The position numbers and the translations under genes are program-made. From an uncultured Mycoplasmatota bacterium (GTDB taxonomy: Bacteria > Bacillota_I > Bacilli_A > RF39 > UBA660), in assembly GCA_948434005.1 (NCBI GenBank), contig CAOJEH010000006.1, positions 1 through 64,000 of the forward strand: a DNA stretch of 64,000 nucleotides, in the 5' to 3' direction. Position 1 is the stretch's first letter, and every line of letters starts with the position of its first letter. Shown piece by piece: positions 3,837-24,018 of this stretch. The notes under the pieces are model-generated. The model was given only the letters and a program-made list of their open reading frames with translations. It did not search any database and had not been told where the DNA came from.

Positions 3837-6194
3837 GTTCCATACCCAATTTTTAATATATGGCATATCTTCACCAAATTCTTTTATATACTTTTTATGT
3901 TTATCTAGCATATCATTACACCAATTTATTAAAATATCAGCATTCTTTTTATATCTTGGCATTTCGTTTAGAGCAGATATAACCAAATGGAATCTATCAA
4001 TTTCATTTTGAACTCTAATATCAAAAGTTGTTGTTATAGTTCCTTCTTCTTTATAACCATGTACATGTATATCCCTATTATTTCTTTTATAAGTTAATTG
4101 ATGAATTAGTGAAGGATAGCCATGAAAATTAAATAGGATTGGCTTATTTTTAGTAAATATCTTATCATACTCATCATCACTCATACCATGTGGATGCTCT
4201 GAATTTGATTGTAATTTCATTAAATCTACAACATTAACTACTCTTATTTTTATATCTTTAACAGCGGTTTTTAAAATATCTACTGCCGCTAGTGTTTCTA
4301 AAGTTGGAGTTTCACCACAACATGCCATTACAATATCAGGATTATCAGTATCATCACTTGCAAAATCCCAAATACTTACACCTTTAGTACAGTGTTTTTT
4401 AGCTTGAGCTTTAGTTAACCATTGTGGTCTTGGATGTTTAGATGCTACTATGACATTTATTTTATCTTTAGTTCTAATGCAATGATCAAAACATGATAGT
4501 AAGCAGTTAGTATCTGGTGGTAAATACATTCTAACAATATCGGCTTTTTTTGTAACTAAATGATTTAAAAATCCAGGATCTTGATGAGTATAACCATTGT
4601 GATCTTGTTGAAATACATGTGATATTAACAAGAAATTTAATGAAGAAATGCTCTTTCTCCAAGCGATTTCTTTTGAAACTTTCAGCCATTTAGCATGTTG
4701 TGATACCATAGAATCTATAATTCTAGCAAAAGCTTCATAACTATGTATAAATCCATGTCTTCCTGTTAATAAATAACCTTCTAACATTCCTTCACAGACA
4801 TGTTCTGATAAAAATGAATCCATTACTCTGCCATTTGATGATAAAAATTCATCACTTCGATATGCTTTAGCATTCCAAGTTCTATTTTCTACTTCAAAAA
4901 CATGGTTAAATCTATTAGACAGTGCTTCGTCTGGCCCAAAGAATCTGAAATTTTTATTCTTATTGTTCATTTTAAATACATCTCTAATATAATTGCCTAA
5001 TTCAATTGTATCCTGTCTAATAATAACGCCTGGTGCAGGAACTTTAATAGCATAATCTTCCCAGTTTGGTAGTTCTAATTCTTTTAATAAAAGTCCTCCA
5101 TTAGCATATTGACTAGCGCCCATACATTTAGTTGGAGAAGGTACTAAATCTTTTAATCTTTTAACTAATCTGCCTCTTTCATCAAATAATCTTTCAGGAT
5201 GATAACTTTTTAACCAGTTTTCTAATAAAGATATATTATCAATATGTAGGTTATCTACTGCTATTGGGACTTGATGAGCTCTAAAGCTTCCTTCTATTTG
5301 TTTTCTCTCAATATTTTTAGGACCAGTCCATCCTTTTGGAGTAGTTAATATTATCATTGGATACATTATTTTTTTTGTTTCTCCGGATTTTATTTTTTTA
5401 ATATCTCTAACTACCATATCTAGAGTTCTTGCCATTGCATCATGCATTTTATATGGATCAGTTCCTGATACATGATAAACCTTATACCCACATCCAGTAA
5501 AGAAATAATCCAAATCCATTTCACTCATTCTACCAAATATAGTAGGGCTTGCGATTTTATAACCATTTCTATGTAATATAGGTAATACTACTCCATCAGT
5601 TTTAGGATTTAAAAATTTATTTATATGCCAACTTGTTGCAAGTGGACCAGTTTCAGCCTCACCATCACCAACACAACAAGCCGCGATTAAATCTGGGTTA
5701 TCTAAAACTGCACCATATGCATGTGCTAAACTATATCCTAGCTCTCCACCTTCATTAATACTACCTGGAGTCTCTGGAGCCACATGAGAAGATATTCCAA
5801 ATGGAAAAGAAAACTGCTTAAATAGTTTTTTCATACCATCTATATCTTCTGTTATTTCTGGATAAAATTTTGTATAAGTACCTTCTAAATAGTTATTTGC
5901 AACCATTGCTTGTCCACCATGACCTGGACCTGATACATATATCATTTTTAAATTATACTTTTTAATTATTCTATTTAAGTGAACATATATAAAATTTTGC
6001 CCTGGTGCAGTACCCCAATGACCTACTACATTAGGTTTTATATCATTCATACTTAATTTTCTTTTCAATAATGGATTATCTAATAGATATAATTGTCCTA
6101 CAGATAAATAATTTGTAGCATTCCAATAATCATTTATATTTACTAATTCCTCTTTTGTTAGAGCTTTCATAGTAAATGTTTTCATCTTACTCAT
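3828..6194 (-). CDS. xfp: Xylulose-5-phosphate/fructose-6-phosphate phosphoketolase
   Basis: A 788-residue thiamine-diphosphate enzyme that splits xylulose-5-P (and often fructose-6-P) with phosphate to give acetyl-phosphate. Length and motifs are those of Xfp: VVGHWGTAPGQNFIYVHLN, YVSGPGHGGQAM, the ThDP motif CCVGDGEAETGPLATSWH, RMYLPPDTNCLL and SKHPRPQW. It implies a heterofermentative or phosphoketolase route making acetyl-P and hence ATP via acetate kinase, which is not in this window. It is monocistronic, with a TATAAT-type -10 about 25 bases upstream of its start and a terminator at its end. Confidence 0.97.
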   Translation of the reverse strand: MSKMKTFTMKALTKEELVNINDYWNATNYLSVGQLYLLDNPLLKRKLSMNDIKPNVVGHWGTAPGQNFIYVHLNRIIKKYNLKMIYVSGPGHGGQAMVANNYLEGTYTKFYPEITEDIDGMKKLFKQFSFPFGISSHVAPETPGSINEGGELGYSLAHAYGAVLDNPDLIAACCVGDGEAETGPLATSWHINKFLNPKTDGVVLPILHRNGYKIASPTIFGRMSEMDLDYFFTGCGYKVYHVSGTDPYKMHDAMARTLDMVVRDIKKIKSGETKKIMYPMIILTTPKGWTGPKNIERKQIEGSFRAHQVPIAVDNLHIDNISLLENWLKSYHPERLFDERGRLVKRLKDLVPSPTKCMGASQYANGGLLLKELELPNWEDYAIKVPAPGVIIRQDTIELGNYIRDVFKMNNKNKNFRFFGPDEALSNRFNHVFEVENRTWNAKAYRSDEFLSSNGRVMDSFLSEHVCEGMLEGYLLTGRHGFIHSYEAFARIIDSMVSQHAKWLKVSKEIAWRKSISSLNFLLISHVFQQDHNGYTHQDPGFLNHLVTKKADIVRMYLPPDTNCLLSCFDHCIRTKDKINVIVASKHPRPQWLTKAQAKKHCTKGVSIWDFASDDTDNPDIVMACCGETPTLETLAAVDILKTAVKDIKIRVVNVVDLMKLQSNSEHPHGMSDDEYDKIFTKNKPILFNFHGYPSLIHQLTYKRNNRDIHVHGYKEEGTITTTFDIRVQNEIDRFHLVISALNEMPRYKKNADILINWCNDMLDKHKKYIKEFGEDMPYIKNWVWNKK

Positions 6195-22537: not shown

Positions 22538-23092
22538 TTATATATACTTTAGTAATTCACTAAACTCTTCATATCCTGATTCACTATTAAGATGTCCTCC
22601 ATCTTTTATTATTACTTGATTATTAGTAATTGTATCAGCAAATTCTTTTTCGGCGTCATATTTTACATAAGGGTCATTTTCACTATAGTAACAAACTATG
22701 TCATCACAATAGTTTTTAATATCTTCTAAATTATTTAAATACATGCTTTTATTAACGGCATCATAATCATCATCTATACCTAAATAGTTATTAAACCCAC
22801 AAACGAATACTAATCTTTTTACTTTTATTTTATTTTCTATTAAGAATTTGCAGATGAATACTGGTGCGATAGAATGAGCAAATATAACTGTATTTTCATT
22901 TATTAAGTTTGCATCTAAATAAACCTTTAATAGTTTACTCCAATTATTATAATTTTGATAACCTACTCCTATTGGAAAGTCTGGTGTATATACTCCTAAA
23001 CCTTTACTTTCAATTTGTTTTCTTAAATATGGAAACCAATTTGAAAATGGACTTCCAAAACTACCATGTATTATAAAATAATTATCTTTCAT
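22538..23092 (-). CDS. RBBP9/YdeN-like serine hydrolase
   Basis: A 184-residue small alpha/beta hydrolase of the RBBP9/YdeN group: IIHGSFGSPFSNWFPYLRK at the N-terminus, nucleophile Ser in VIFAHSIAPVF, acid in CYYSENDPYVKY and catalytic His in IKDGGHLNSESGY. These are small esterases of largely unknown role. It is read with its neighbours on the minus strand. Confidence 0.9.
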   Translation of the reverse strand: MKDNYFIIHGSFGSPFSNWFPYLRKQIESKGLGVYTPDFPIGVGYQNYNNWSKLLKVYLDANLINENTVIFAHSIAPVFICKFLIENKIKVKRLVFVCGFNNYLGIDDDYDAVNKSMYLNNLEDIKNYCDDIVCYYSENDPYVKYDAEKEFADTITNNQVIIKDGGHLNSESGYEEFSELLKYI

Positions 23093-23120: not shown

Positions 23121-23940
23121 TTAACATAAATCAATTACTTCTAAATCATCTGGTACTAAGACATTACCATTAAAATATTTTTTTCCTTCTTTAATATATA
23201 ATTCTTTTCTATTTTTATGAGTTTCTTCTGTATGAAATAAAATTAAATTCTTAATGTTTAAATCATTAAAGTTTTCACAACTTGATTTAACTGTTGAATG
23301 GTGTATATCATAAGGTTTGAATATATCAGCTTCACTATCTAAGCAAAAAGCTTCATGCATTACATATTCACTATTTCTAATTTTTTCATATAAGCTTGGA
23401 TTACAAGTTTCATCACCTAAAAATACTAATTTCTTATTATTATCTAAAATTGTCTCAAAACCATATAATAAATTACCTCTAGCTTTAACATCAAAAAAAG
23501 TATATTTTCTATTTGTAATTTCTAAAGTATCTCCATCTGATACGACTATGATATTTAAATAATTTTTGATTTCATCTACCATTGGTTTAGGATATAAATT
23601 TGGATATATTGCTAAAATAGCATCCCTTACTTCACTATTGCAATAAATATTAAAAATACCGTTATGTACACCACGTTTAGTTCTTTTTCCTGTTATCATT
23701 CCAGTTATTAGTTTTAATATCCAAAACAGTCCTAAAATATGGTCTGTATGACAGTGAGATATAAATATATTATGTATTTTATCAAGACCTATTCCCGACT
23801 TTTTTAGATTTTCTATTATATTGATACCCCCCCCCCGTGTGAATCAAAAAGTATTCATCATCATTTTGTATAGCAAAACAAGTATTGTATAAACTTATAG
23901 TACTTCCCATACCTGTTCCTAACATTATAATTTTTTGCAT
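23121..23940 (-). pseudogene. MBL-fold hydrolase broken (or switched) at a G10 tract
   Basis: The reading frame starts at 23940 (AAAGGAG 7 bases upstream; begins MQKIIMLGTGMGSTIS) and runs to a homopolymer of ten C on the plus strand at 23827-23836. With ten G the frame ends about 18 codons later. With nine it continues as T-G-G-G-I-N-I-I-E-N through ISHCHTDHILG, the metallo-beta-lactamase H-x-H-x-D-H motif, into the rest of the gene ending at 23121. The whole is about 272 residues and RNase Z-like. A shorter in-frame ATG at 23699 would lack the metal site. Confidence 0.85.
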
Positions 23941-24018
23941 ATAGTATTCTCCTTTCTGATTATTATATCATACTATTTATATTTAACTAATATTATTTAT
24001 AACATTTACTTTTACATA

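Follow-up and report, generated by a model that had tools for sequence, protein, structure and literature searches.

A ten-G tract that sets the reading frame of an RNase-Z-like hydrolase gene is a probable contingency locus in an uncultured Mycoplasmatota genome

Does a run of ten G inside a hydrolase gene switch that gene on and off, or does it mark a gene on its way out or a slip in the assembly? The question was raised by an initial annotation of the window (the whole 64-kb stretch of DNA that was analysed), which had placed such a run inside an MBL-fold hydrolase gene and held that nine G would give a full-length protein and ten an early stop. The elements concerned lie on the minus strand:

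23827–23836, minus strand: G10 tract (C10 on the plus strand), the proposed switch; read directly
23121–23940, minus strand: RNase-Z-like MBL-fold hydrolase gene, out of frame as assembled; frame test, and Pfam on the read-through protein
23785–23940, minus strand: product as written, 51 aa and then TGA, directly followed by TAA; frame test
23739–23756, minus strand: HCHTDH metal-site motif, after the tract; read directly, frame test
23949–23953, minus strand: AGGAG ribosome-binding site, preceding the ATG at 23938–23940; read directly
23839–23841, minus strand: CAC (His) codon, Asp in 16/16 aligned homologues (DTGG loop); alignment
22538–23092, minus strand: serine hydrolase gene, directly downstream of the hydrolase gene; gene order

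The plus strand does read C10 at 23827–23836, within the minus-strand gene, and the tract was rightly singled out in such AT-rich DNA. No other run of G or C in the window reaches 7, and the longest runs of A and of T are 9 bases even though T makes up 43% of the sequence; under a first-order Markov model, about 0.0008 G/C runs of at least 10 would be expected per window. The tract is thus longer than composition predicts, and it passes the poly-G cut-off of at least 9 for repeat tracts, which we took from PMC5953494.

The frame test agreed with both lengths given in the annotation, as 9 or 12 G yield a protein of 272 aa, 10 G yield 51 aa and 11 G yield 41 aa. A single-unit change in the tract switches the reading frame, as is the case in a translational contingency locus, and in the sequence as written the metal-site motif, which the tract precedes by about 70 bases, is out of frame, again as annotated. 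A non-standard genetic code was considered as an escape from truncation and ruled out; TAA directly follows TGA in the 10-G frame, so the truncation at 10 G holds however TGA is read.

The read-through protein matches Pfam Lactamase_B_2 and Lactamase_B at 40.0 and 37.8 bits (cut-offs 27 and 22.7) and carries the HxHxDH motif of the MBL-fold superfamily. Its best NCBIfam model is ribonuclease Z (TIGR02651), at 78.1 bits against an equivalog cut-off of 292.95. The likeness to ribonuclease Z extends to an LGTG start and the HxHxDH, GDE, HEAF and HST motifs, but 78 bits fall well short of the 293-bit cut-off and the gene is sporadic, not universal in its host family; we call the predicted product RNase-Z-like, as an RNase Z identity is unproven. 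All motifs 3′ of the tract are intact (HxHxDH, GDE, HEAF, HST and HTEE), and in an alignment with 16 homologues only 1 of the 28 invariant columns departs in this protein. Here the Asp of the DTGG loop is replaced by His, two codons ahead of the first Gly and just before the tract, at what we take to be the motif-I Asp of the MBL superfamily; that residue is therefore missing here where all 16 aligned homologues have it. It is possible that the in-frame protein is impaired by this His, or that the base is a sequencing error beside the homopolymer. The serine hydrolase gene possibly shares a transcript with the hydrolase gene.

We consider it reasonably probable (about 0.62) that G10 is a phase-variation tract of the translational kind; the genome has about 14 distinct G-tract loci, this one included. 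Slipped-strand mispairing during replication would add or remove single G's at the tract; lengths of 3n (9 or 12) would give the full-length hydrolase and the ON state, while other lengths would stop translation before the metal site, leaving fragments of 51 or 41 aa and the OFF state, in which the assembled sequence would be found. Other tracts in the genome would act on transcription, through promoter spacers. We infer that the population is mixed in tract length and that this has consequences for the cell. The annotation had called such tracts classical phase-variation sites, a view that gains strong circumstantial support from the 14 distinct loci with at least eight G, at least four of them in promoter spacers, and from the open, conserved sequence of the gene 3′ of the tract; most relatives lack the tract, which does not help it. 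Contingency genes mostly shape the cell surface, and MBL hydrolases are atypical among them.

The strongest support for phase variation is this genome-wide set of tracts, which comes from outside the window. The genome comprises 1,446,823 bases in 17 contigs and holds 16 G tracts of at least eight (lengths 8–11), where about 0.7 would be expected from the window Markov figure scaled up; they represent 14 distinct loci, as 52 kb of contig C1 occurs again in contig C9. Runs of exactly 6, 7, 8, 9, 10 and 11 number 12, 6, 3, 7, 5 and 1, a bimodal distribution with a second mode at 9–10 instead of a steady decay. Four distinct tracts of G9–G11 lie exactly between TTGACA (−35) and TATGAT (−10), and a reversed-pattern control for such spacers gave 0 matches:

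C1:280544 (L043): promoter-spacer G tract before a paralogous secreted-type protein
C2:236120 (L046): promoter-spacer G tract before a DrrA-type ABC transporter
C4:127272 (L048): promoter-spacer G tract before a protein with a type-IV-pilin-like N-methylation motif
C11:3799 (L054): promoter-spacer G tract before a serpin

From their placement these four are likely transcriptional phase-variation loci, and a further tract (L047) looks like a degenerate version of the same arrangement. Six tracts lie in coding frames, and those outside the window affect the reading frame as G10 does:

RNase-Z-like hydrolase gene (G10): out of frame
2-hydroxyacid dehydrogenase (L044): out of frame
DUF6020 membrane protein (L045): in frame
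Inositol monophosphatase-like protein (L049): out of frame
HipA_C-like protein, slightly below the Pfam cut-off (L051): out of frame
DegT aminotransferase–PglD fusion (L056): in frame

With two of the six (L045 and L056) in frame and four out of frame, the split is as random phase would predict and by itself cannot separate biology from error. In the fusion gene, a G8 (positions 4008–4015 of L056; C11:35907–35914) joins a DegT/DnrJ/EryC1 aminotransferase and a PglD-type acetyltransferase in one frame; a change of one base either way would split the two domains, and the tract may switch the fusion rather than the gene. Elsewhere, a G10 (positions 4007–4016 of L055; C11:9606–9615) sits behind an upstream gene, in the place of a ribosome-binding site immediately ahead of an ATG, and might alter translation through spacing. 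A G9 near a DUF6056 membrane-protein gene (positions 3995–4003 of L042; C1:114694–114702) has no length that joins the upstream start, and this may be a decayed switch.

The repeated contig sequence was looked at separately. C9:5609–57918 repeats C1:260695–313004, the end of C1, over 52 kb with 4 mismatches, all at the ends and none internal. We rejected the idea of C9 as a second haplotype, given an overlap identical except for 4 end bases; the repeat is probably a redundancy of the assembly and would then count as contamination. As a duplicate, the overlap is uninformative on length variation, and it also excludes the hydrolase locus.

Comparison of the homologous gene in relatives, as the annotation had proposed, gave a mixed answer. 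The gene is sporadic: among 386 genomes of the family 21 have it, its own genome counted. Querying genome contigs with the read-through protein turned up no relative. The closest homologue (L246 in genome G235; 58–60% identity) reads GGC GGG GGG GTA, a G7 that is in frame and sits at the same glycine codons as G10, whereas the other homologues covering the site lack the tract and mostly use mixed glycine codons with no G run. Of the Gly codons in the genome studied here 6% are GGG, and of the Thr codons 3% are ACG, so ACG-GGG-GGG is an unexpected spelling. G10 seems to have grown out of glycine codons in the conserved DTGG loop, and the origin of the tract would be the Thr-Gly-Gly-Gly codons of the family's DTGG(G) loop. 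Since G tracts come and go between species, their absence in relatives is a weak refutation test. On the side of switching we therefore count the open frame after the tract, with 27 of 28 otherwise invariant columns kept, the G7 at the same codons in the closest homologue and the many G9 tracts in relatives; against it stand the absence of the tract in most homologues, the His at the motif-I Asp and the several homologues broken in other ways, which would fit a gene that is possibly just decaying.

That last possibility, a recent pseudogene, with a dispensable gene on its way out and a frameshift that happened to fall at a long G run, is the alternative that survives best, though we consider it unlikely. 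Three homologues are broken without a G tract (in G121, within an A run, and in G326 and G306), and in G004, of the same genus, only a 3′ remnant of the gene is left, adjoining the same serine hydrolase. Going by these sequences, the hydrolase gene is dispensable over evolutionary time, and this keeps decay alive as a rival; the sporadic distribution and the Asp-to-His change fit it as well. However, the remainder of the gene is intact and conserved, and decay leaves unexplained both why G10 is written in rare codons (GGG 6%, ACG 3%) and why there are 13 other distinct tracts.

An assembly or sequencing error, with a true tract of nine G and a gene that is always on, is also improbable in our view, and we rank it behind gene loss. 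Homopolymer length is error-prone, and the sole other unusual residue of the protein, the His for Asp, adjoins the tract; other tracts read alike in their two copies on C1 and C9, but the two contigs appear to be duplicates of each other. Even if the assembly were off by one base, a G9 would still be left, which PhasomeIt counts as phase-variable (at least 9; PMC5953494), and the genome's set of tracts stands whatever their exact lengths.

The tract could instead set the −35/−10 spacing of a promoter inside the gene and so act on the genes behind it, a reading that we hold to be quite doubtful. The element in question is:

23815–23843, minus strand: promoter-like TTCACA – 17 nt (holding G10) – TATAAT, a candidate that is possibly due to chance; 11/12 match

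With an 11/12 consensus match at 17-nt spacing, it belongs to a set of just 13 such sites across both strands of the window. Same-direction genes follow closely (serine hydrolase, APH-type kinase and short-chain dehydrogenase), and promoter tracts nearer the −35, as here, occur in other genomes (G088, G109 and G141). We keep this reading low because the −35-like sequence follows from the family's Ile-Asp-Thr codons, the Asp-to-His change weakens that sequence and does not improve it, and the closest homologue with its G7 lacks such spacing. Least probable of all, and barely credible, is a single tract with two outputs, whose length would govern both the hydrolase frame and the spacer of the internal promoter, an either/or switch in which the hydrolase would be on at 16-nt spacing and the downstream genes best expressed at 17-nt spacing with the hydrolase off.

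Returning to translational phase variation, a close known parallel is Campylobacter jejuni, in which G/C tracts measure G8–G11, with G9–G10 the commonest, and vary mostly in single-base steps that shift coding frames, a minority being intergenic (PMC8355987). Like that species, the genome studied here is AT-rich, and the mode at 9–10 seen above falls on the lengths at which C. jejuni tracts are held (PMC8355987). It differs in phylum and in the gene concerned, and C. jejuni is without functional mismatch repair whereas MutS is present here. MutS is intact here, as it is nearly throughout the family, and the long tracts are therefore not due to MutS loss; mismatch-repair loss as their cause is rejected as far as MutS goes. 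A second parallel is Neisseria meningitidis, where a homopolymer lies between the −35 and −10 of porA, fetA and opc (PMC2791445). At least four other distinct tracts of our genome are placed in this way; G10 itself lies in a coding part, and its promoter-like surroundings may be chance.

The hydrolase tract is probably a contingency locus within a large G-tract repertoire. One library, searched for papers describing switching at G tracts in uncultivated RF39- or Mollicutes-like lineages, yielded none, a weak sign of novelty, and the repertoire is apparently so far undescribed. If true, 14 distinct G-tract loci in so small a genome, from a family whose other members have up to 140 nine-G matches, would broaden the picture, and a switchable RNase-Z-like hydrolase would be an unusual contingency gene.

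Among 145 genomes of the same family, 80 have one G9 or more; the number of overlapping nine-G matches per genome ranges from 0 to 140. The promoter-spacer pattern is found in 16 of the 145 against 0 of 145 for the reversed control. Beyond the family, the matches listed for this pattern include named Bacilli, Clostridia, Saccharibacteria, Streptobacillus, Helicobacter and others, some of which may be chance. Two genomes of the same genus are worth describing. In G006, eight contigs (L293–L300) start within a G tract or one base before it, near similar promoter sequence, and it is possible that repeats or mixtures of tract lengths stopped the assembler there; we set these starts aside as a sign of length mixtures, since the promoter sequence recurs at most of the breaks and repeats explain them at least equally well. 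G007, with 155 eight-G matches in its genome, contains clusters of paralogous secreted-type genes (L302 on C13 and L303 on C7) spaced about 1.0–1.1 kb apart, each gene preceded by a TTGCAA-like −35, a G9 and TATAAT, and from this arrangement the clusters look like a large switchable surface-protein repertoire.
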